A stretch of 26,508 nucleotides of DNA from a virus: IMG/VR virus record IMGVR_UViG_3300037189_022715, positions 1 to 26,508 of that record. One strand, given 5' to 3'. A program made the position numbers and the translations under genes. Within the stretch, counting starts at the first letter, position 1. The number at the start of each line of letters is the position of its first letter. The notes beneath the pieces are model-generated. The model saw nothing but the letters and a program-made list of their open reading frames with translations. It made no database searches and was not told the origin of the DNA. Positions 2,449-24,538 of the stretch are shown here, piece after piece.

Positions 2449-2471
2449 AATTTAAAGTTTATTTTATAGTG

Positions 2472-2479
2472 TTATTTAT
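2472..2479 (-). promoter_or_regulatory. Late-promoter motif (ATAAATAA)
   Basis: Minus-strand ATAAATAA, 24 nt upstream of the ATG at 2448. It is one of a set of identical octamers that sit at similar distances before late genes in this window and resembles the T4 late promoter core TATAAATA. Confidence 0.6.
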
Positions 2480-2505
2480 TTGGAAACCTAATCGTCGTTT
2501 TAAGA

Positions 2506-2511
2506 TATAAT
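2506..2511 (+). promoter_or_regulatory. Early promoter -10 box (TATAAT)
   Basis: TATAAT 5 nt before the ATG at 2517. The usual 7-nt distance to the start of transcription puts +1 at about the start codon, implying a leaderless mRNA. No convincing -35 box. Confidence 0.4.
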
Positions 2512-2516
2512 AAACT

Positions 2517-2771
2517 ATGAAGGAAAAAGATATATCTGCACGACAAGCTGCACTAAATAGTGCTCTTCGTGATGCAATACTTAAGAAAATTGATGTGATT
2601 CGGGAAAATATTGTTTTTGATAAAGGCTCAGATAAATCATCGTATTTTCAAATGTTAATAATGGTGGATGAAGATTTAGATGATGTCCTACTTAATTGGG
2701 AATATGATTCAATTAATCCAAGTCTTTCTTTTCTAGACTCAGACGACCTAGACGATGAGGACGACGACTAG
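2517..2771 (+). CDS. Small acidic early protein
   Basis: 84 residues, helical N-terminal half and a very acidic tail (DSDDLDDEDDD). No Shine-Dalgarno; a TATAAT box at 2506-2511 is so close that transcription would start at about the ATG. The 3' end overlaps a convergent small gene on the other strand (2713-2880) by 59 nt. It is not in a recognised family. The acidic tail could act as a nucleic-acid mimic or binding surface, but that is speculation. Confidence 0.55.
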   Translation: MKEKDISARQAALNSALRDAILKKIDVIRENIVFDKGSDKSSYFQMLIMVDEDLDDVLLNWEYDSINPSLSFLDSDDLDDEDDD

Positions 2772-5056: not shown

Positions 5057-5860
5057 TTACATTTTATATGCTTCTTTAAATGATGTGTATCCATTCGTAA
5101 ATCTTCTCCAGTCAAGTTCTTTTTCATAAGATACTCCTTCGTCAATTAGGAATTTAACTAAATCCATTGCATTTTTTCGATCTGCTGCAAGTAGTGGCAT
5201 TCTTCCGCTTTCAAACATTTGAACAGATCCTTCATTAGTCGTAAATCCTTCAATTACGACTGTGCCCCAATCAGAATCCTTACCTACTATTTTAAAGTTT
5301 GAACCAGATTTTTGTCTAAGCTCAAGATTAGTAACTGATAAGTAAACTTCGTCTCTTTCATATCCACTGGTTGGCATACCTACTAATTTAACCTCAGTCA
5401 CTTGATTTGTCCCATATTGCTTACCGTGAGCAGATACTCGATCAGCAAATAAATCCATTTTTCTTCCTCGTAAATTAGTTTCGATTTCTCTCCACTTTTT
5501 ACCTGAGACTTCGTTTATATAACCTTCAAAAGTTTTAACCATCATATCATCTTCTCCAAGTGGACCAAGGTTAAACGAATTCACGATTTCTCTATTTGCA
5601 GGAATACCTACACTATTCTTTAAAAAGTTATAAACTTCTTGTACATCATCTGCAGATGATGCAATATGATCAACTGCCCATTCATGGCCACCCTTTAGGA
5701 TTTCATCAATTTGAGCATGATCCATTTGTACAAGCTCGTCAATCATTCTTTTTAGAGTTTCAAGGTTTCCAAAAAACATATAATTTAGGTCAGATTCACG
5801 GTTTTTCATACACCTATTAGATGTTCCTTCACATCCACATGAACATTCATTAATTCTCAT
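5057..5860 (-). CDS. Late protein with Cys-rich start and internal cleavage-like site
   Basis: 267 residues that look like two modules. Residues 1-105 start with MRINE then four cysteines (C6, C8, C10, C17) and a helical domain (NLETLKRMIDELVQMDHAQI). Residues 108-117 read VKTFEGYINE, the leader peptide seen at the start of other late proteins, and residues 118-267 form a second, beta-rich module (VYLSVTNLELRQ, TVVIEGF). Cleavage at E117 would separate them, or the gene may be a fusion of two genes that kept the second leader. The upstream gene ends 7 nt before its ATG. No enzyme motif seen. Confidence 0.6.
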   Translation of the reverse strand: MRINECSCGCEGTSNRCMKNRESDLNYMFFGNLETLKRMIDELVQMDHAQIDEILKGGHEWAVDHIASSADDVQEVYNFLKNSVGIPANREIVNSFNLGPLGEDDMMVKTFEGYINEVSGKKWREIETNLRGRKMDLFADRVSAHGKQYGTNQVTEVKLVGMPTSGYERDEVYLSVTNLELRQKSGSNFKIVGKDSDWGTVVIEGFTTNEGSVQMFESGRMPLLAADRKNAMDLVKFLIDEGVSYEKELDWRRFTNGYTSFKEAYKM

Positions 5861-5867
5861 ATCTAAT

Positions 5868-6626
5868 TTATTTTTTAATTACACCCTTAGCAATTAAGAT
5901 ATCCTTTTTTGTAACAAGGCCGTCTCCGCTCATATCTGGAAAGCCTTTATCTTTTTTAGGCTTCTTCTTTATCTTAGTATCTTCTTTAGCTACTTTAGCT
6001 TTAGCCATTTGTTTCTTACCCTCATTAATAAATTGATTAAAGCTCATAATTCCTCTAGACTCATTCGGCATTTCACCGACGACTGCAGTTGGAGCAACTA
6101 CTCCGCTCTCAATCTGCTCAGGAGAAGCTGGAACAACCGTCTCTTTAGTTGATGTATCTAATTCTACTGATTTAATAAATCTAACTGTAATATCAGGAAT
6201 CTCAATTCCGTCTCCACCGGTTCCTTTCAATACTTGTGTAACATTACCTAGCTTAATTCCTTCTACTATATCACCAGTGATTGAATCATCTAGATTAAAT
6301 ACTAGTGCTTCTGCATCGTTTTTAGATGTATCGTTTTTAGTATTTAAGATGATCAGCTTAATATCTTTAGATTTAGTTTCATTTGTTTTATCTTTCCACT
6401 TAGCATCCTCTTTAGATACTGACTCGCCGGTCTCAAGCGCATCCATATCCTTCATAGTTAGTGTGACCTCTAGGATATTTTCTTTCGCTAGGAGTTCAAA
6501 GTCTTCTAATTTATCAGTAGGTAATGCTTCAGGCAAACTTCCAGGTGTCCCCATCTCTTCTGGATCAAGTGGCATGCCCATCTGTTCAGCTTCGTAAATT
6601 TTCGTAAAGTTAAAATATTTATGCAT
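5868..6626 (-). CDS. Late protein with internal cleavage-like site and EF-hand-like loop
   Basis: 252 residues. The N-terminus (FNFTKIYEAEQ) carries a hydrophobic-x-Glu site at E12. Residues 45-165 form a beta-rich domain. Residues 194-202 (MSFNQFINE) repeat the capsid-leader peptide, followed by a Lys-rich linker (KIKKKPKKDK) and residues 231-242 DMSGDGLVTKKD, whose spacing (D1, S3, D5, G6, V8, D12) fits a calcium-binding EF-hand/dockerin-like loop. Cleavage after E202 would free a basic 50-residue peptide with the calcium-binding loop. A late promoter sits at 6645-6652. Confidence 0.6.
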   Translation of the reverse strand: MHKYFNFTKIYEAEQMGMPLDPEEMGTPGSLPEALPTDKLEDFELLAKENILEVTLTMKDMDALETGESVSKEDAKWKDKTNETKSKDIKLIILNTKNDTSKNDAEALVFNLDDSITGDIVEGIKLGNVTQVLKGTGGDGIEIPDITVRFIKSVELDTSTKETVVPASPEQIESGVVAPTAVVGEMPNESRGIMSFNQFINEGKKQMAKAKVAKEDTKIKKKPKKDKGFPDMSGDGLVTKKDILIAKGVIKK

Positions 6627-6644: not shown

Positions 6645-6652
6645 TTATTTAT
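6645..6652 (-). promoter_or_regulatory. Late-promoter motif (ATAAATAA)
   Basis: Minus-strand ATAAATAA 19 nt before the ATG at 6626. It overlaps the stop codon of the upstream gene 6649-7389. Confidence 0.6.
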
Positions 6653-7389
6653 TCTGAATATATCTTTGAATATAGTTCTGATAGTAATTCAATGATTTCT
6701 TCAATTGTTCCATCTCGGCGTAACTCTTTAAAGACTAGATTTTCTACCGCAAATTCACCGCCTTTTGCAAGACCCTCTTTACGATCATTCATGATCTTCT
6801 TTTTAATACGATCTAGATAATCATACATGTTTTGAGCTTCATCACCCTCAGCAGAGCGAGCCTTTGCCTTCACCATCTTGATTTCAGTCTTAATGACTCT
6901 CATCTTTTCATCAATATCCTTCTGATCAAAGTTAGGTTCACTCCAATTAGGAACAATAATCCACCTATCTCTAAGTATTGAAAAGAGACCTGATGCAACG
7001 TGTTGTTCGTCCTTGTGTTGAACATAGCACTCAACATCGTGTCCTCTAAGAATTACAGGATGGCGTAAGTTCCACATAAATCGCTGACCATCTAGTGCTT
7101 TTCTAACTAGCTCTAGGTTTCCATCAATCTGTGCAAAATCAATAATTATATGTACGTCTAGGTCTGAGTCCTTATTCCAATTAAAATTAGCGATTGAACC
7201 AGTCAATTGGATATCCATAATTGGAACTTCTAATTTTAGTGAAGACCAGAAATCGTCAGCTACTGCAAGCAATTTTGCTCGTATTGCCTGGTCCATCTTA
7301 CCCTCTTCCCAGAACTTAGGACAAAGGTCACGATTGTATTCTACCTTTTCGTTGATCCATTGATTAAAAGTATTTGCTTTATGCTTCAA
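6649..7389 (-). CDS. Nucleotidyltransferase (Pol beta superfamily) with capsid-targeting-like N-terminus
   Basis: 246 residues. Residues 63-81 contain TGS (63-65) followed by D76-L-D78, the G-S-x(n)-D-x-D signature of Pol-beta-type nucleotidyltransferases, with a candidate third acidic residue at E120 (DVECYV). Such enzymes transfer a nucleoside monophosphate to RNA, protein or small molecules; the substrate cannot be read here. Residues 6-14 (NTFNQWINE) match the T4-like capsid leader, so the enzyme is probably packaged in the head, trimmed after E14 and delivered with the DNA. A late promoter at 7410-7417 fits virion timing. Confidence 0.75.
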   Translation of the reverse strand: MKHKANTFNQWINEKVEYNRDLCPKFWEEGKMDQAIRAKLLAVADDFWSSLKLEVPIMDIQLTGSIANFNWNKDSDLDVHIIIDFAQIDGNLELVRKALDGQRFMWNLRHPVILRGHDVECYVQHKDEQHVASGLFSILRDRWIIVPNWSEPNFDQKDIDEKMRVIKTEIKMVKAKARSAEGDEAQNMYDYLDRIKKKIMNDRKEGLAKGGEFAVENLVFKELRRDGTIEEIIELLSELYSKIYSE

Positions 7390-8396: not shown

Positions 8397-8786
8397 ATGG
8401 AATCTTCAAAGGAAAAACTTGATGCTTATCTCGAATCAATAGGTGGGCTTGAAAACGGTTGGCGACCTGACCGTCCACCAATAAAGGATGCTCACTATTT
8501 TGAGTGTAATGAAGGCTGGTATCCGCTAATTCAAAAACTTATCGAAGACCTTATCCAACTCGGTTGGGACAAACAGGTAACTCAAGTAAAGGAAAAGTTC
8601 GGTGGACTTCGGTTCTATATCAATGAAGGATCCGATGAAGTACACACTCGAATTACTAAAGCTGAAGGTGAAAGCTACACCATCTGTGAGATGTGTGGAG
8701 AAGCTGGTGAAATTAGAAGGGATACTGGATGGTACCGAACCCTATGCGAAGCACATCATATTGAAATCAAAGATAGGAAACGATGA
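8397..8786 (+). CDS. Zinc-binding hypothetical protein ('KFGGLRFY' family)
   Basis: 129 residues from the ATG at 8397 (a TTG one codon earlier is less likely). Residues 41-73 carry the string GWYPLIQKLI and KEKFGGLRFY, which I recognise as the hallmark of a widespread small bacterial/phage hypothetical family. It continues with C97-x2-C100 and C117-x2-H120, a likely zinc site. Biochemical role unknown. It overlaps the next gene by 4 nt (ATGA), so the two are translationally coupled. Confidence 0.65.
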   Translation: MESSKEKLDAYLESIGGLENGWRPDRPPIKDAHYFECNEGWYPLIQKLIEDLIQLGWDKQVTQVKEKFGGLRFYINEGSDEVHTRITKAEGESYTICEMCGEAGEIRRDTGWYRTLCEAHHIEIKDRKR

Positions 8787-9130
8787 CAGAATTTAGATTC
8801 TATAAAGAAGAGACACACCGGTGGTATGTTGACCTGCCTAAATGGGAAGGCCCTAAAGCTGCACTAGAAATGGTCGACGGTGCCGATACTATGTTAGAAT
8901 ACATGGCAGAAGGTTTAGGAGAAGTCAGAGCTATTCTTTCCACCAGAAAAGTAGATAATGCATATCACCTACACTTTGTACGAGAGACTCCTGAAATAGG
9001 TGAAGGTGCTCAATATTACCTTGAAGAATATATCGGACTTACGATTAATTTAAGAGTCTGGTTATGTGACGTCACAAAATTTGTCTTTGGAGACTTTCCT
9101 AAAGATATTTGGATCACACCTATTAATTAG
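8783..9130 (+). CDS. Hypothetical protein of a conserved DUF family
   Basis: 115 residues, starting with the pattern RFYKEETHRWYVDLP and containing KAALEMVDGADTMLEYM and WLCDVTKFVFGDFP. These strings recur in a small family of uncharacterised bacterial and phage proteins (I think DUF6717, not verified). No catalytic residues can be named. Second gene of the early operon, coupled to the preceding one by an ATGA overlap. Confidence 0.55.
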   Translation: MTEFRFYKEETHRWYVDLPKWEGPKAALEMVDGADTMLEYMAEGLGEVRAILSTRKVDNAYHLHFVRETPEIGEGAQYYLEEYIGLTINLRVWLCDVTKFVFGDFPKDIWITPIN

Positions 9131-9549: not shown

Positions 9550-9950
9550 GTGAGAATATATTTGAAAAATTAACAGCTTTTTTAAAGACTGAAGAAGGGA
9601 AACGATCTATCACAGAGTTTGGTAAAAAAATGAAAGCTGCTGATGATTACAAGAAGCTTAATATTGAACGCTTTAAAAAATATGCAGAACATCGACTCGA
9701 TGAAGTGCTTGAAAGGATAATTGACAAGTACGATTCAGACGAATACGTTCGTCGAGAATATAGATTAGGCTATGAGCCTAGAGAGACTCTTCTTTGGGTC
9801 GCATTTAATTATGCCGAAGAATATTGCAAGCCTTGTGAAGATCCTGAATATGCAAACACTTTTACTGGAGCGATGTATACTATTGGCTCCTATGTGATTC
9901 AAGTAATGCACGGCCAAGGGTCGGTGGTTAAAATAGAAAAAATAAAATAA
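9546..9950 (+). CDS. Hypothetical early protein
   Basis: 134 residues, helical, charged. Strings such as DSDEYVRREYRLGYEPRE and the aromatic WVAFNYAEEYC suggest a conserved phage family, but I cannot name it. It begins by an ATGA overlap with the cREC gene and ends 11 nt before the PRPP-synthetase homologue, so it belongs to the same operon. No function is visible. Confidence 0.6.
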   Translation: MSENIFEKLTAFLKTEEGKRSITEFGKKMKAADDYKKLNIERFKKYAEHRLDEVLERIIDKYDSDEYVRREYRLGYEPRETLLWVAFNYAEEYCKPCEDPEYANTFTGAMYTIGSYVIQVMHGQGSVVKIEKIK

Positions 9951-9961
9951 AAACAACTAAC

Positions 9962-10855
9962 ATGTCAAAAATTAGCACGCTCAATCTCGCATATCCTGAA
10001 AAATCAGATATTAAGTTCGAGAAGACAAAATTTCCTGATGGACAACAGTCAATTAAGATAACTTCAGGTGTAGCCTCTGAAATAGCAATTAAAATCTATT
10101 CAAGATTTACTAATTTTCAGGACTTAGAACTTATTCTTTGCGCTACCGCTGCTCTAAAGAATATGGGAATGACTGATATTTTTCTCTATGTTCCATACTT
10201 CTTAGGCGGTCGTAGTGATCGTAAGTTCGAAGACGGCTCAATCAATTATATCAAGGATGTAGTTGCTCCAATTATTAATGCACAGCACTATAAAGGAGTT
10301 CTAGTCCTGGATCCTCATTCTGACGTAATCGAAGCGTGTATTGATCGACTAGACAAGATAGACAACTATAGTCTAATCAAAGCTGCTCTTACCGCAATTG
10401 ATAATACAAATGCTGCTCGAGAAAAGATGTGTATTATCTCTCCAGATGCTGGTGCACTTAAGAAGATTTATGGAGTAGCTAAGCATTTCGATATCCGAGA
10501 AGTTGTGACTGCATCTAAAGTCAGAGACTTGACAACCGGTAAGATCATATACACTGAACTTCCGCAGATCGATGGTTCCCGTGGAAAAAACTTTGTAATC
10601 ATCGACGATATTTGTGACGGAGGTCGAACATTTATTGAAGTTGCAAAAGCTATTCGCGAACAGAGACCGCTGGACTTATTTGGTGATAAAATCTACTTGA
10701 TTGTCACTCATGGAATATTTTCAGCTGGTCTACTTGAACTTTTCAACTATTTTACTGGTGTTTACTGTACAAATAGTGTCAAGGATATCAAAGTCGACGA
10801 ATATTCAGACTATGCTGTCGATAATAGCTTCTTAACCCAATTTAATATATTCTAA
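9962..10855 (+). CDS. PRPP synthetase homologue (Prs / ADPR-PP synthetase Adps type)
   Basis: 297 residues, close to the usual 300-320. Motifs in order: FPDG (24-27), PYFLGGRSDRK (78-88, ATP/ribose-5-phosphate region), LDPHSD (116-121, metal-binding His), SPDAG (160-164), the K-x-R flexible-loop pair K186/R188 and the PRPP-binding VIIDDICDGGRTF (212-224). Canonical enzymes make PRPP from ATP and ribose-5-phosphate. In phage NARP1 a homologue instead pyrophosphorylates ADP-ribose to ADPR-PP for NAD+ rebuilding. Sequence alone does not tell me which substrate is used; the NAMPT homologue at 14670 and the ADP-ribose-type neighbours favour an NAD role. The stop overlaps the next start by 1 nt (TAATG). 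Confidence 0.85.
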   Translation: MSKISTLNLAYPEKSDIKFEKTKFPDGQQSIKITSGVASEIAIKIYSRFTNFQDLELILCATAALKNMGMTDIFLYVPYFLGGRSDRKFEDGSINYIKDVVAPIINAQHYKGVLVLDPHSDVIEACIDRLDKIDNYSLIKAALTAIDNTNAAREKMCIISPDAGALKKIYGVAKHFDIREVVTASKVRDLTTGKIIYTELPQIDGSRGKNFVIIDDICDGGRTFIEVAKAIREQRPLDLFGDKIYLIVTHGIFSAGLLELFNYFTGVYCTNSVKDIKVDEYSDYAVDNSFLTQFNIF

Positions 10856-12851: not shown

Positions 12852-13511
12852 TTATAGTTTTTTAGCTACTGGTGCAGTTGTTGTGGTCGGTGTAGCAACA
12901 GTCAATGGTTTAATTGCTAACCATAGTGTTCCTGCAAAACCACTAGGCTGCGTTTTATAAGTATCTAAATTTCTAACTACATGACTTCTAAACTTGTCCT
13001 GTATAACAGTATTTGATCCTAATTTAGTACACCATGCTGTAAATACTTCTCCAGTTAATCCTGCTTCAGTTAATGGCAAAATATCATCATTAGTAATTCC
13101 TTTCCAGCCAGCTGCAACAGCCGGATAAAAATTCTGTCTATCCATCGGTCCACTATCAGTTGGATTTATTGCTTTACCAGTAGTTGAAATAAACACTGAA
13201 CCTGCATAAAAAGGCATAGGCGTACCTAATTTGTTTGGCTCTAAACTATATACATTAAATGACTGTTCATTCATGAGAGCTCCACCCTGTGGGTTAGCTG
13301 AAAGTTTTGCACAAATATAATATGTTGATCCAGCATATGCAACAGTTTGGCCTTTAATAGTATTCCAATTACCTTTATGTTTAGCCAAAAATGATTTTGC
13401 GGCTGCTGCCAGGTCTGGATTGCCTGAAAGAGCTTCATTCAGAGCAAATCCTCCATGTTTTGAACGATACGATTCGTTAAGCCAGTTTTTGAAGTTTAAA
13501 ACATTTGACAT
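12852..13511 (-). CDS. Late protein with capsid-targeting-like N-terminus
   Basis: 219 residues. Residues 5-13 (LNFKNWLNE) and 21-26 (GFALNE) give two consecutive candidate prohead-protease sites at E13 and E26. The body (residues 30-195) is Gly/Ala/Thr-rich and beta-like; the last 20 residues are a Thr/Pro/Ala tail. Cysteines at C68 and C163. A late promoter lies at 13529-13536. No domain recognised; probably a head-packaged or virion protein. Confidence 0.6.
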   Translation of the reverse strand: MSNVLNFKNWLNESYRSKHGGFALNEALSGNPDLAAAAKSFLAKHKGNWNTIKGQTVAYAGSTYYICAKLSANPQGGALMNEQSFNVYSLEPNKLGTPMPFYAGSVFISTTGKAINPTDSGPMDRQNFYPAVAAGWKGITNDDILPLTEAGLTGEVFTAWCTKLGSNTVIQDKFRSHVVRNLDTYKTQPSGFAGTLWLAIKPLTVATPTTTTAPVAKKL

Positions 13512-19241: not shown

Positions 19242-19661
19242 ATGGAAGATCGACAAATTATCCTAAATCAAATCAGGACGCCAGACGGTACCGTTTTGAA
19301 ATCTATGCATCGTCATGATTACGTGACCTACACTGATAAGAATGGTCTTGAATATATGGTAGATGGAGGTAGTGAATACTTACGACGTACTGTTCATGAA
19401 TCAGCACCATATGAAGAGATAAGTGTTTATGAAGATGCCCCATTCGAAGAGATTCGTGAAGCTTTCCATAGAGGCGGCCGAGGTAAAGACGGTACTGAGC
19501 CTCTTACTTGGGTACCGATGTCAAAAATGAGCGATGAGTGGTTACTTGCATGTATTGAATACAACGAAGATCGCGGAATGAGTGAATCTTTCGCAAATGA
19601 AATGTACAAGAAGGAGTTAATGCATCGTCTTTACGATCCGGCTCTTTCAATTAAAGATTAA
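19242..19661 (+). CDS. Conserved phage hypothetical protein (RTPDG...RGKDG type)
   Basis: 139 residues. RTPDGTVLKSMHRHDYVTYT, MVDGGSEYLRR, APFEEIREAF, RGGRGKDG and MSDEWL are strings I recognise from a family of uncharacterised proteins in several T4-like phages. The function is not established. Its stop codon overlaps the convergent stop of the lysozyme-like gene (19658) by 3 nt, with no terminator between. Confidence 0.65.
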   Translation: MEDRQIILNQIRTPDGTVLKSMHRHDYVTYTDKNGLEYMVDGGSEYLRRTVHESAPYEEISVYEDAPFEEIREAFHRGGRGKDGTEPLTWVPMSKMSDEWLLACIEYNEDRGMSESFANEMYKKELMHRLYDPALSIKD

Positions 19662-20233
19662 GGCTGTGGATCAAACGGAGCGTCTATCTCAGCTTGAGTT
19701 ACATCAGGTGCCTGGAATTTAACGATTTCAGGCATTTTTAGTTTTTGATAAAGATCATATAGTTCTCTAGCACCAGCTATTCGATTTGGGTGGCGACGAT
19801 CAGATTCTGCACAACGCTCATATCGAGCAGCTACTTGATATGCTGCGTCTTCAACCGTTGCAGCTTTTTCAATTGCTGGCAATGATGATTTCTCAGCAGT
19901 CTGAGTAAGCTCATAATTAAGTAATTTTAATTGAGAGTCTACTGTAAACTGAGCTGCTCCAGTTATTCCAAGTTTAGCTAGTCTACTAAATCGATCTGAT
20001 CCCCACTGAACAAGTCCTTTAAATGATCCACCGACCGCTTTAGGATTGAATTTTGATTCTCTAAACATGTTACCAGCAAAAGCGGCAGCCGTTTTTTCTG
20101 AAAAACCATATTCAGAAATGAGCTTACTCATTATCTCAATACCTTTATCTCTTATGCTAGCATAAGCCGCTCCATCATCAAAATAGGACTCATTTATTTG
20201 AATCCACTCATTTAGTGGTAAAATATGTTTCAT
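19658..20233 (-). CDS. Phage lysozyme-like protein with capsid-targeting-like N-terminus
   Basis: 191 residues from the ATG at 20233 (a longer frame from 20305 would overlap the upstream gene by 71 nt and lacks a leader). Residues 6-15 (PLNEWIQINE) match the capsid leader, with cleavage predicted after E15. Residues 31-95 (GFSEKTAAAFAGNMFRESKFNP, VGGSFKGLVQW) match the phage tail-lysozyme/muramidase-like domain; E59 is the likely catalytic Glu. It would cut peptidoglycan during DNA entry, as a virion-carried enzyme, rather than in lysis. A head location is inferred only from the leader; tail or baseplate is possible. The upstream gene ends 1 nt before this start. Confidence 0.75.
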   Translation of the reverse strand: MKHILPLNEWIQINESYFDDGAAYASIRDKGIEIMSKLISEYGFSEKTAAAFAGNMFRESKFNPKAVGGSFKGLVQWGSDRFSRLAKLGITGAAQFTVDSQLKLLNYELTQTAEKSSLPAIEKAATVEDAAYQVAARYERCAESDRRHPNRIAGARELYDLYQKLKMPEIVKFQAPDVTQAEIDAPFDPQP

Positions 20234-20234
20234 A

Positions 20235-21614
20235 TTAAAATAACCAGTTACCTGATGTTTTTTCTTTAGCTGATGAAGTCTTCTTAAATTCATTTTCAGT
20301 ATCATCCATCGATACTCCTAATAGACCTGCAATACTTACTTCAGGCGCTTTAATTTTACCAGTAACAATATATGCTGCGAACTTATCAATTGCACCATCT
20401 AGTGTATGCACAGAAATAATACTTGGAATAGATGCATAATTCCCAGCAACTGGTAATTCTCTTTTATATTTCTCAGGTTGAGCTTCTCTAAATCCAGTTT
20501 CAGGATCTGAACCCTCTTCATCTGGACTAAATTTTTTCTTAGCTACACTATATACTGCAGTGTACGACATTCCTCGAGAGCTTGCCTCCTGATTTTCTTT
20601 TTCTAATTCAAATCCAGAAGTCTTAGCGTATGCACTTGGTGCTCCTTGTACTCTACCTCTACCTTCTTCAAAAAGCTCCTGTCTAAAATCTCTAAATTTT
20701 GAAAATAACCAAGTTTGGGTTCGACCTGCATCTGAACCTAGTGCAGATGCAACTTCATCAAATTCAGGATCATTTTCTCTAGAATAGGGTTGATTATCGA
20801 TTTGATTTATCATTCTCTCCTTGATTTCAGGTCTAGCTTTAGCTGCAATCTTTGCAAATCGATTAGCAAATACTCTTACAAAATCCCTTGATGTAGTTTC
20901 TCCTTTTGCTGCTGTTCGGGTTTCTCTAGTTGTTCTAGGCTCAGTCGCTGGAGTAACTGGTAAAACGTAAACATATAATGGTTTCTCTAGAGAAGGAGCG
21001 TATTTTTTCTCTCCTTGTCTACTCATTGCTCTAACGAATTCTTGGATCTTACCGTTCGTGTTTCCTCCTTTAGTATCATGAACACCTCTTAGTTGTGATC
21101 TATCTACACCACTAGTAGTCAACTCAGAATATCCATAATCAATTACCTTCTTTCTTTCTGGGTCCCATGCCATTACTGCATACTGTTCTCCAGTAGCACC
21201 CTTACTTGGTTGTTTATGGTATAGGAACATAAAGAAGTCAATCTCTTTGTTTACAATAAAGATTCTGATCTCACCAAATGGAATCGATTGTAGGTACCAT
21301 GCAAAATCAGTGTATTCGCTCTTAACCTCCTTGTCTTGGAATGGACTGCGATTAGACTTACGACCTCTTAACTTAATTGGTTCGGGAATCTCAACGTCCG
21401 GTGAAGGAATATAATACTTATATGACATAGGCACAGCTGCTCTAGATTTATAAGTGTGACCCATTTGAGGATAACGATCAGCGTAGTGTTCCTCTTTTGT
21501 ATGGATCGTTCGGATCATATCTTTTGGAAGACCTAATTGACTTAAATTCGAGTCTTCAAATATAAAAAATGACTCAAAAGTCGGTGCACAATAAATATCT
21601 CTTTTAGACATCAT
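20235..21614 (-). CDS. Large late protein, unknown function
   Basis: 459 residues starting MMSKRDIYCAPTFESFFIFED. Residues 12-20 (TFESFFIFE) resemble the leader of its neighbours, with a candidate cleavage after E20. The region 90-175 is beta-rich (FGEIRIFIVNKEIDFFMFL), residues 225-300 are Arg/Glu/Thr-rich and probably helical, and the end is a Ser/Thr/Lys tail. I do not recognise a domain. A late promoter lies directly upstream at 21628-21635, shared back-to-back with the divergent gene 21665. Probable virion or head-internal protein. Confidence 0.55.
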   Translation of the reverse strand: MMSKRDIYCAPTFESFFIFEDSNLSQLGLPKDMIRTIHTKEEHYADRYPQMGHTYKSRAAVPMSYKYYIPSPDVEIPEPIKLRGRKSNRSPFQDKEVKSEYTDFAWYLQSIPFGEIRIFIVNKEIDFFMFLYHKQPSKGATGEQYAVMAWDPERKKVIDYGYSELTTSGVDRSQLRGVHDTKGGNTNGKIQEFVRAMSRQGEKKYAPSLEKPLYVYVLPVTPATEPRTTRETRTAAKGETTSRDFVRVFANRFAKIAAKARPEIKERMINQIDNQPYSRENDPEFDEVASALGSDAGRTQTWLFSKFRDFRQELFEEGRGRVQGAPSAYAKTSGFELEKENQEASSRGMSYTAVYSVAKKKFSPDEEGSDPETGFREAQPEKYKRELPVAGNYASIPSIISVHTLDGAIDKFAAYIVTGKIKAPEVSIAGLLGVSMDDTENEFKKTSSAKEKTSGNWLF

Positions 21615-21664: not shown

Positions 21665-22879
21665 TTGATAAAGGATTTTCAAAGTTTCATAAATGAAGCA
21701 ATAACTTTAAAAAAGGAAGGGGGCGCTCATTATTTAGAGAGAGCAGACACTCGCCTTTCTCAACTTGAAATAATTGGATTCACTAATAGTAAAGGAGAAA
21801 AGGTTGAATCTACAAAATCAGATATCTCACAAGCTCAACAGTTTTTTAGAAAAGCTCTATCGAATATCGCTGACCCAAATAAAAGCAAGATATTTGCAGA
21901 TACAGATATTCAGCCAGGATATATTGGAATTATTCGATTAGGCAAACCAAAGGTCACTCTTTCAAATGGAGAAGAGGTGATGCCTATCTTTAGAGTATAT
22001 GAGAGAACTGATAAATCGACAGGTCAACAAGTCTTTCGTACCGGTACATGCTTTTGGTTATTTACGATAGGCTCGGAAGTATCAACTATTAAGTTATATG
22101 ATGTTGATGGAAATAGCAAGTCTGAAAAATCTTTCCTAATCAATAAGTCAATCGGCCATATGTTAGCAGATCGACAAGCTGAACTTGCTAAGATATCTAG
22201 AGTATTTTCCGTTAAGATGGAATCAACTGAAGACCTTGAAAAGCGACATAATATTGTTCTAACTCCAGGTGGAATATCAATAGTTCACTTAAACCTTGAG
22301 AATGCAAATATTAAGGATCAACTTGATGCTATTCTTAAAGACTCAACTTTTATTAAACAGGAGAAAATTCAATTGATTCCTAATCTAGATCGAGAGTCTT
22401 CATTTAGTCTTGAAGCAATTCCAAAACAGATGAACGTTACACCAGAAAAAGTATGGTTACTTGAGAAAAACGAGAAATTTAATACTTGGGGAGCAATGCC
22501 TATTCTACAATCAAAACAGATTAAAGGACTTACTGGTAATGAGATTCAAATTAAGCTTGGTAAAAAATGGTTACACTGGTTGGAAAAACCAATGTTTAAT
22601 ACTCCACTACAAATCGATAGAGTTATAAAAAAGGGTGATACTATAGTATTGGCTAAAGAGATCGGAAACGGTGATTGGTTAGTAAACACTGGTCTAATCA
22701 CTGATATTGCCACTGATTCTAGGTCAAGTGAATTTCCATACGTGAAAACCAATGGTTGGGATAGTTCAATCATTATTAATAAAGAGAATGCTGCAAAGAT
22801 ATTTGTTGATTCTAGACTAGTTAATGAGAGTCATAGAGCTCTAAGCTTTTCACAATGGCGATCGCTTAATCACCAATAA
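21665..22879 (+). CDS. Late protein with capsid-targeting-like N-terminus, TTG start
   Basis: 404 residues. No ATG exists before the leader; the frame starts at TTG 21665, and the first residues (MIKDFQSFINEAITL) match the capsid leader, so cleavage after E11 is predicted. The plus-strand late motif at 21639-21646 is the promoter. The body is beta-rich with repeated short strands; no domain recognised. Near the C-terminus (SHRALSFSQWRSLNHQ) another leader-like string occurs. The 3' end overlaps the convergent gene at 22866 by 14 nt. Confidence 0.65.
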   Translation: MIKDFQSFINEAITLKKEGGAHYLERADTRLSQLEIIGFTNSKGEKVESTKSDISQAQQFFRKALSNIADPNKSKIFADTDIQPGYIGIIRLGKPKVTLSNGEEVMPIFRVYERTDKSTGQQVFRTGTCFWLFTIGSEVSTIKLYDVDGNSKSEKSFLINKSIGHMLADRQAELAKISRVFSVKMESTEDLEKRHNIVLTPGGISIVHLNLENANIKDQLDAILKDSTFIKQEKIQLIPNLDRESSFSLEAIPKQMNVTPEKVWLLEKNEKFNTWGAMPILQSKQIKGLTGNEIQIKLGKKWLHWLEKPMFNTPLQIDRVIKKGDTIVLAKEIGNGDWLVNTGLITDIATDSRSSEFPYVKTNGWDSSIIINKENAAKIFVDSRLVNESHRALSFSQWRSLNHQ

Positions 22880-23323: not shown

Positions 23324-23337
23324 TCTTAACAGATATT

Positions 23338-23366
23338 TTAAACCCTGTTGAAAAAACAAGTATAAT
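23338..23366 (+). promoter_or_regulatory. Early promoter of the structured RNA (TTAAAC-N17-TATAAT)
   Basis: TTAAAC at 23338-23343, 17-nt spacer and TATAAT at 23361-23366, predicting +1 near 23373. It matches the promoter pattern in front of the early genes at 8397 and 25903. Confidence 0.6.
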
Positions 23367-23372
23367 AGAATA

Positions 23373-23796
23373 GTTCTTTGAATATTGTATGAGCTGTAGG
23401 AATTGAGTATGATTAAGCAACCTTGTGTTCTCAAGGCGCTCTGTGACCGACGGTTCTACATTTGACTACTTACTGAATGTTGGCACAATGGAAACAATAG
23501 ATGCTACCAATCCTTGAGAGTCTTTAATTCTGATAAAGATTCAAATAGTTAGGGGGAACGGAATTGGGATTTTGGGGTAATACCGCGTCGAGCGACTGAC
23601 ATAAAAGGCCGAATCTTTATCTGAAATTGTTTACAGCCAATAGTATTCTGTGCGATGCATAGCATAGAGCCAACGGTAAGACGTCTAATTCTTCGAGTTG
23701 GTTTTAAGCCTAACTTTTATCCAACAAGATAAGATGTTCCAATTGGAAGTGGATAAAGTAGTTATGAAGGTCTCGGTGCGTCACCGAGACCTTTTT
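23373..23796 (+). ncRNA. Unassigned ~424-nt structured non-coding RNA
   Basis: No convincing coding frame spans the 519 nt between 23300 and 23820. The segment has a promoter at its 5' end and a terminator at its 3' end, and its sequence is rich in self-complementarity: GATAAAGATTC (23532-23542) with GAATCTTTATC (23611-23621), 11 bp perfect; TAACT+TTTATCCA (711-723) with TGGATAAA (750-757) and AGTTA (760-764), 13 bp with a 2-nt bulge; TCTCAAGG (429-436) with CCTTGAGA (512-519), 8 bp; CCAAC (670-674) with GTTGG (697-701); TTCC-AATT-GGAA (737-748). (Numbers are 23xxx.) The internal G-rich stretch AGGGGGAACGG is single-stranded in this model. I found no tmRNA, RNase P or 6S hallmarks. Function unknown. 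Confidence 0.7.
23767..23796 (+). terminator. Intrinsic terminator of the structured RNA
   Basis: AAGGTCTCGGTG-CGT-CACCGAGACCTT, a perfect 12-bp hairpin, followed by TTTTT. Very strong, ending the RNA 24 nt before the HAD gene start. Confidence 0.9.
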
Positions 23797-23819: not shown

Positions 23820-24206
23820 ATGGATATATTAGTAGATTTTGATGGAACGTGTACTACACATGACTTTCCAAGAGTTGGTCAAGAAATTGGTGCACCTGAA
23901 GTATTAAGAGACTTAGTATTGGCAGGTAATCGGTTGATACTATTCACCATGCGCAGCGATAGCAGTCAAGGTAAATACTTACAGGATGCAATAATATGGT
24001 TTGACGAAAATGATATTCCTCTTTATGGAATTCAGGAAAATCCTACACAAAAGGCTTGGACAAGTTCACCAAAAGCATATGGTCAATTAATAATAGACGA
24101 TATTTGCTTGGGTATTCCTCTAATGGTTGATCCAAACTTATCGGACCGTCCCTTCGTTGATTGGCCTAAGTGTAGAGTCTTAATGGGAGATCTTGGAATC
24201 CTTTAA
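23820..24206 (+). CDS. HAD-superfamily phosphatase-like protein
   Basis: 128 residues. VDFDGTCTTHDF opens with the HAD motif I (D6-x-D8-G-T); LFTMRSD at 41-47 carries motif II (T/S); IIDDICLG (D93, D94) fits motif IV. Short HAD proteins with this layout remove phosphate from small substrates, sometimes nucleotides; the substrate is not indicated by the sequence. It starts 24 nt after the ncRNA terminator and its 3' end overlaps the convergent gene at 24203. Confidence 0.75.
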   Translation: MDILVDFDGTCTTHDFPRVGQEIGAPEVLRDLVLAGNRLILFTMRSDSSQGKYLQDAIIWFDENDIPLYGIQENPTQKAWTSSPKAYGQLIIDDICLGIPLMVDPNLSDRPFVDWPKCRVLMGDLGIL

Positions 24207-24538
24207 TCTCTAAACTTTCCAGGAAAGATTCTTCTTAAATCATGTCCGTGAGGAACATCCTTTGTTCTAATACCAAAGATCTTCTTTTCTGGTTTCATGC
24301 CAGGTTGACATGCATCTTCACCATTCCATTTGAATCCATTACGACATGCCCATCCTTTCATAAAAGGTATTTGTAAAAGTTGACCTGTTACAAAAGGAAA
24401 GATTATTCCTGTATTGTTGTCGATCTCCTCTATCTTTCCATGGCGAATAGTTAAAGTTATATCACGACCCATTCTAGAAGTCATGATAATCTCCTCTTCA
24501 CGCTGCCAGCTTTCAAATAATTGAATATATCTCTTCAT
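24203..24538 (-). CDS. Small late protein with leader-like N-terminus
   Basis: 111 residues. The start KRYIQLFESW fits the late-protein leader with cleavage after E9. The remainder has two cysteines near the middle (WACRNGFKWNGEDAC) and a Lys-rich end. No domain recognised. It begins 9 nt after the upstream gene ends, so they form one transcript from the promoter at 24893. Confidence 0.55.
   Translation of the reverse strand: MKRYIQLFESWQREEEIIMTSRMGRDITLTIRHGKIEEIDNNTGIIFPFVTGQLLQIPFMKGWACRNGFKWNGEDACQPGMKPEKKIFGIRTKDVPHGHDLRRIFPGKFRD

Follow-up and report, generated by a model that had tools for sequence, protein, structure and literature searches.

Few classes of large structured RNA are known in phages. 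The best known, GOLLD and ROOL, often lie near tRNA islands, carry conserved intermolecular kissing loops and have no assigned function (PMC12286853). ROOL can reach the abundance of 16S rRNA, and at least one strain can do without it; GOLLD increases during phage lysis and is bound by ribosomes in pull-down experiments (PMC12286853; PMC5643018). Here we describe an unrelated family of about 300 nt from the same setting, with sharp compensatory evidence for two pseudoknots and a putative dimer loop, which makes it a tractable model for phage RNAs kept beside tRNAs.

The RNA from which this analysis started lies at positions 23373–23796 of IMG/VR record IMGVR_UViG_3300037189_022715, an uncultured virus. 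The whole 26,508 nt stretch, referred to here as the window, has a T4-like flavour and encodes NadV, a PRPP synthetase, a band-7 protein and a tail lysozyme. The RNA resembles GOLLD in being phage-borne, in lying often near or within tRNA islands, in self-association by kissing loops (PMC12286853 for GOLLD; predicted from sequence for the new RNA) and in joining a conserved region to a variable 5′ part. However, many GOLLD members exceed 800 nt, whereas the conserved unit of the new RNA measures about 300 nt, contains two pseudoknots of its own and has no match in sequence or by covariance model. ROOL is likewise a phage RNA found near tRNA islands, with multiple pseudoknots and a conserved intermolecular kissing loop (PMC12286853; predicted in our case), but its length is about double (659 nt in the example with a solved structure) and it again gives no covariance-model match. 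Since the new family shares with these RNAs a setting and a predicted self-association, and neither size nor covariance model, it is like GOLLD and ROOL at most by analogy.

A first-pass annotation, made from the window's letters, had found here none of the marks of tmRNA, RNase P, 6S RNA or group I introns and had raised the possibility of a new class of ornate RNA, proposing an Rfam covariance-model search and a comparison with related phages as checks. Neither the covariance models of the four excluded classes nor ARAGORN gave a match over the RNA. The whole window had nothing in Rfam at gathering thresholds, and what permissive filters returned was weak, with the top match on the terminator tail; we discarded rteR/BTnc231 (E 0.08 and 0.29), which covers the terminator and tail only and scores far below gathering. 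With permissive filters, no match to GOLLD, ROOL, OLE or other large-RNA families was found at E = 10 over the RNA in three members, and in member L024 none at E = 5 except to neighboring tRNA-like stretches. An RNA of this kind is not described in Rfam 15, INPHARED, PLSDB or the GTDB genomes, and literature searches for such phage RNAs brought up only GOLLD and ROOL, large supplementary motif collections (e.g. PMC8040213) lying outside their scope. The RNA is thus without a confident match to a known RNA and belongs to a new family, separate from GOLLD and ROOL and loosely grouped with the large ornate phage RNAs.

The outer features of the RNA gene in the window are as follows.

23337–23366, plus strand: promoter-like −35 TTTAAA and −10 TATAAT, spacing 18, 10 of 12 matches
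23373–23460, plus strand: 5′ add-on domain, folding alone at −21 kcal/mol, seen only in the window and L011
23766–23794, plus strand: intrinsic terminator of 13 pairs, also in L011 and L005

Stop codons interrupt all six frames between 23373 and 23796, so that the first-pass statement that no coding frame is present holds. The 424 nt fold at −118.8 kcal/mol compared with −102.8 kcal/mol in shuffled sequences (z −2.9; 0 of 100 shuffles better), and together with the strong covariation in homologues described below this bears out the earlier description as a long structured RNA. The RNA starts 7 nt downstream of the promoter-like site, and although a promoter scan is weak by itself (5 sites versus 2.7 expected), GTATAAT is also found ahead of the RNA in L011 and L005, its two closest relatives; the first-pass description of the promoter as an early one is not supported from sequence. 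With the terminator at the other end, the RNA has, as had been proposed, a promoter and a terminator of its own. The window RNA is a real, stand-alone, non-coding structured RNA.

The family has eight members, the window and seven others (L011, L005, L015, L016, L017, L022 and L024), all on uncultured phage contigs and amounting to about six independent lineages; a further record, L019, is a near twin of L022. L011 (91% identical across the full RNA) and L005 (80%) were reached through the small gene downstream of the RNA, and the other five, on phage contigs of 8.7–362 kb, were found with short exact patterns of conserved parts. Common to all eight are GTCG[A/T]GCGACTGACATAAAAGGCC, ATGCTACC and a GAACGGAATTGG-like motif. 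A looser gapped pattern gave no further members, and we rejected the pattern matches L021, L023 and L025–L032, as well as all 21 pattern matches in genome contigs, because the rest of the core is missing from them. A covariance model built from the core (R1) was run on the member records, on nine other records carrying the downstream gene and on six isolated phages. Exactly one strong copy was recovered per member record, and nothing rose above noise in the nine gene-carrying records or in the whole genomes of PAU, PTm1, Lbo-JY46, Lak-B2, cr85_1 and RCIP0012. Searches with blastn against isolated phages (queries: window, L017, L022 and L024) produced only chance matches and tRNA pieces, a search of plasmids with the window produced nothing beyond the same, and a pattern search of the species-level GTDB genome collection produced chance matches only.

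Comparison of the members places the conserved unit at about 23463–23764 (roughly 300 nt). The 5′ add-on, an extra hairpin domain making up the first 88 nt of the window RNA, is absent from L005 and is not seen in the members that lie in tRNA arrays. We rejected the minimum free-energy fold of the 424 nt as the conserved structure since its long-range pairing uses this add-on. That the domain is cleanly missing in L005, where the −10 box stands directly before the closing helix P0, means that an entire RNA domain has been gained or lost naturally. The elements of the closing helix and core are the following.

23463–23471 with 23756–23764, plus strand: closing helix P0, own pairing the best of 120 permutations
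23485–23489 with 23626–23630, plus strand: P1, permutation p 0.0028 (2/720)
23493–23498 with 23545–23550, plus strand: P2 of an H-type pseudoknot, 100% paired, AU to GC in L024
23507–23513 with 23560–23567, plus strand: P3, crossing P2, 96.4% paired, AU to GC in L024
23519–23541, plus strand: P4 hairpin, varying in length and sequence between members
23568–23570 with 23619–23621, plus strand: P6, enclosing the invariant block, two-sided changes in 3 of 3 pairs
23587–23610, plus strand: 24-nt block GTCG[A/T]GCGACTGACATAAAAGGCC, invariant in 8 of 8 members apart from its one A/T-variable position

Because the register of P0 and P1 shifts between members, these two helices were tested without an alignment, by a swap test in which each member's 5′ strand is paired with every other member's 3′ strand. 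P0 was tested in seven members, with an energy between −7.2 and −13.5 in every one, and its own pairing stays the best (1/120) when the 3′ partner is sought anywhere in the last 75 nt. The pseudoknot strands (AACaAU/AUaGUU in P2 and CCAAUCC/GGaAUUGG in P3) interleave around the variable hairpin P4, and in L024 one pair of each helix is G-C in place of A-U, the two having changed together. Across the core, nine of 26 pairs have two-sided changes and 91.8% of cells are paired; 0 of 500 shuffles reach either value, and all slid controls fall far below. A possible 3-bp helix, P5, inside the invariant block is beyond covariation testing because it does not vary. On this comparative evidence the RNA is shown to be a unit closed by P0 around a compact core of P1, the P2/P3 pseudoknot, P6 and the invariant block.

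Two helices singled out in the first-pass annotation were found in the sequence and did not prove to be conserved. The 11-bp helix (23533–23543 with 23611–23621) is perfectly complementary in the window, but at −16.1 kcal/mol there versus −1.2 to −6.1 in seven homologues it is specific to the window and we rejected it as a family helix. The bulged 13-bp helix (−11.2 in the window, falling to −6.7 and −7.5 in its two nearest relatives and to −1.3 in L015) competes with P0 for the same 3′ strand; it is strong in the window only and loses to P0, and was also rejected.

Between the core and the 3′ strand of P0 lies a second domain.

23637–23641 (CCAAT) with 23742–23746 (ATTGG, in the P8 loop), plus strand: pseudoknot PK-B, 100% paired, two-sided changes in 4 of 5 pairs
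23647–23668, plus strand: P7 hairpin with 8-nt loop GATGCATA containing the palindrome ATGCAT, two-sided changes in 7 of 7 stem pairs
23681–23686 with 23732–23737, plus strand: P9, enclosing P10, two-sided changes in 6 of 6 pairs
23697–23701 with 23721–23725, plus strand: P10, a candidate seen by eye only in the window, L011, L005 and L015
23738–23753, plus strand: P8 hairpin TCCA[ATTGGAAG]TGGA, 100% paired, two-sided changes in 3 of 4 pairs, its loop the 3′ partner of PK-B

PK-B, the second long-range pseudoknot, joins five bases following P1 to the P8 loop and occurs in five versions (CCAAU/AUUGG, CCAAG/CUUGG, CCUAG/CUAGG, CCUAU/AUAGG and UCAGG/CCUGA). In the swap test its own pairing is the best of 120 permutations and remains so (1/120) when the search covers the last 75 nt; P9 scores 1/120, and 4/120 in the same wide scan. 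These permutation tests use five lineages, for which 1/120 is the floor. The strands of P9, P8, PK-B and the 3′ side of P0 were located by eye before counting, a bias that the wide scan reduces and does not remove. Counted over P7, P8, P9, PK-B and the palindrome of the P7 loop in seven members, which were aligned as a composite (A4, made of chosen segments with N placeholders), 96.6% of cells are paired and 22 of 25 pairs have two-sided changes, compared with 70% and 12.5 in shuffles, and 0 of 500 shuffles do as well. The pairing pattern shows a 3′ domain locked by PK-B. Taken together, the compensatory changes in both domains, which the comparison with related phages had been expected to reveal if the structure were real, establish at the level of sequence comparison a structured RNA family. 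The alternative that the RNA is a chance structure or a relic, for which its restricted distribution might speak, is contradicted by this covariation and hardly deserves credence.

In the composite alignment the P7 loop has 8 nt with a purine on either side of a palindrome (G-AUGCAU-A, A-AUGCAU-G, A-GUGCAC-G and G-GUCGAC-A). Self-complementarity is kept in seven of eight members through three palindromes, AUGCAU, GUGCAC and GUCGAC, and the chance that a random central hexamer is a palindrome is 1 in 64. Retention of a palindrome through two other versions is hard to explain without pairing of the loop with that of a second molecule, and we infer that P7 is a putative homodimer kissing-loop site, while some other reason for its retention could exist. 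The retroviral dimer initiation site is a hairpin loop with a purine-flanked 6-nt palindrome whose versions, such as GUGCAC, are kept palindromic. P7 has the same arrangement, with GUGCAC among its versions; the analogy extends to this one hairpin, in a different RNA and context and without homology, and the loop has 8 nt here as opposed to 9 nt in HIV-1. L024 keeps the core and has no recognizable P0, PK-B or palindromic loop, so dimerization is perhaps not universal in the family. The natural variants of the family already supply the swaps with which dimerization and the long-range pseudoknot could be probed.

Five of the eight members (L015, L016, L017, L022 and L024) lie inside tRNA arrays, with one boundary of the folded unit about 1–20 nt from a tRNA in each. 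Most of these five contigs carry tRNA arrays, as does that of L011, where the array lies elsewhere; the number of tRNA matches reaches 46. The window, L011 and L005 have the RNA instead as a gene of its own, between a promoter and a terminator and upstream of the same small gene (23820–24206 in the window).

We favor a reading, and think it probable, in which this is a self-associating phage RNA of a new family, GOLLD- and ROOL-like while belonging to neither. Two copies would join through the palindromic P7 loop as a kissing homodimer, which might in turn assemble into something larger, as GOLLD and ROOL do. In most members the RNA would be transcribed as part of the tRNA array, and tRNA-processing enzymes acting at the adjoining tRNAs would trim it; cutting of the ends by these enzymes is suggested because the RNA abuts tRNAs and the contigs carry arrays. 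In the clade of the window it would be expressed from its own promoter-terminator gene. Our guess is that it accumulates during infection as an abundant RNA particle or scaffold, like GOLLD and ROOL, and has a role around translation, such as the holding of tRNAs, ribosomes or host factors, this role being a guess from gene context. A bolder form, in which the invariant core is a catalytic or tRNA- or ribosome-binding site of an RNA machine that forms a kissing homodimer, comes from tRNA arrays and has become a stand-alone gene in one lineage, we put forward tentatively as the less likely outcome; if true, such a machine of large phages would be categorically new.

Other readings of the same features seem to us less likely than either. 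Phages carry regulatory RNAs, and the conserved segments GACAUAAAAGG and AGGGGRAAC are predicted to be unpaired, so that a trans-acting decoy or antisense RNA, with these exposed segments binding a protein or RNA of the host, for instance a regulator or defence sensor, is conceivable, if unlikely. Complementarity to the E. coli rRNA operon, which may not be that of the host, reaches at most 7–8 nt, no more than in shuffled sequences. We also rejected, as being at chance level, a likeness of the core to 23S rRNA (the GGGGGAAC motif) and an antisense relation to rRNA.

Slightly less likely again is a ribozyme or RNA-processing RNA, with the invariant core as catalytic or substrate-binding center, for instance cutting or binding neighboring tRNA transcripts. 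The 24-nt block, unchanged but for one A/T position even between L024 and the window, is more conserved than folding alone needs, and the RNA packs closely against tRNAs. However, it is not beside tRNAs in the window's clade, no cleavage site is apparent and there is no RNase P, group I/II intron or ribozyme match in Rfam at E up to 10.

The position of the RNA just upstream of the same small gene in the window, L011 and L005, with the terminator between them, would fit a riboswitch-like leader acting by attenuation, but this we consider improbable. Only three of eight members precede that gene and the other five are in tRNA arrays; most other contigs carrying the gene are without the RNA in front of it, and none is found elsewhere in those records above chance. 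Moreover, no antiterminator stands out beyond shuffles (a fraction of 0.305 of shuffled terminator arms pair equally well), and P0 and the terminator do not overlap. More doubtful still is strong divergence from GOLLD, ROOL or some other large RNA already known: the setting of phage and tRNA islands and the predicted kissing loops are the same, but no large-RNA family matches over the RNA in the members scanned even at permissive E, and the unit of about 300 nt is much shorter than GOLLD or ROOL.

Several further observations concern the contigs themselves. In L017 (contig 3300042868_008486) the tRNA array at 9669–10072 and 8770–8843 includes a tRNA with anticodon CUA, which ARAGORN calls Pyl and which may be an amber suppressor, together with several tRNAs whose anticodon loops are odd; calls of a similarly odd kind occur in L015 and L024. 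Matches to the tRNA model of 113–120 nt in L016 (3198–3317) and L017 (9757–9869), far above normal length, suggest large inserts or variable arms. In L024 the RNA core is followed (2470–2560, minus strand) by a T-arm and an acceptor-like 3′ end with no evident 5′ acceptor partner; a weak tmRNA-model match in this downstream tRNA-like stretch is a 17–18-nt T-arm.

Finally, many otherwise unrelated proteins of the window carry one kind of motif, represented by FxxFINE, FNQWINEK and FKNWLNES, usually near the N-terminus (regions 941–1384, 2005–2448, 5057–5860, 5868–6626, 6649–7389, 12852–13511, 19658–20305, 21665–22879, 24203–24538 and others). The motif resembles the capsid-targeting sequences and the (I/L)xE sites for prohead protease that T4-like internal head proteins have, and the window may be a repository for proteins that are co-packaged.
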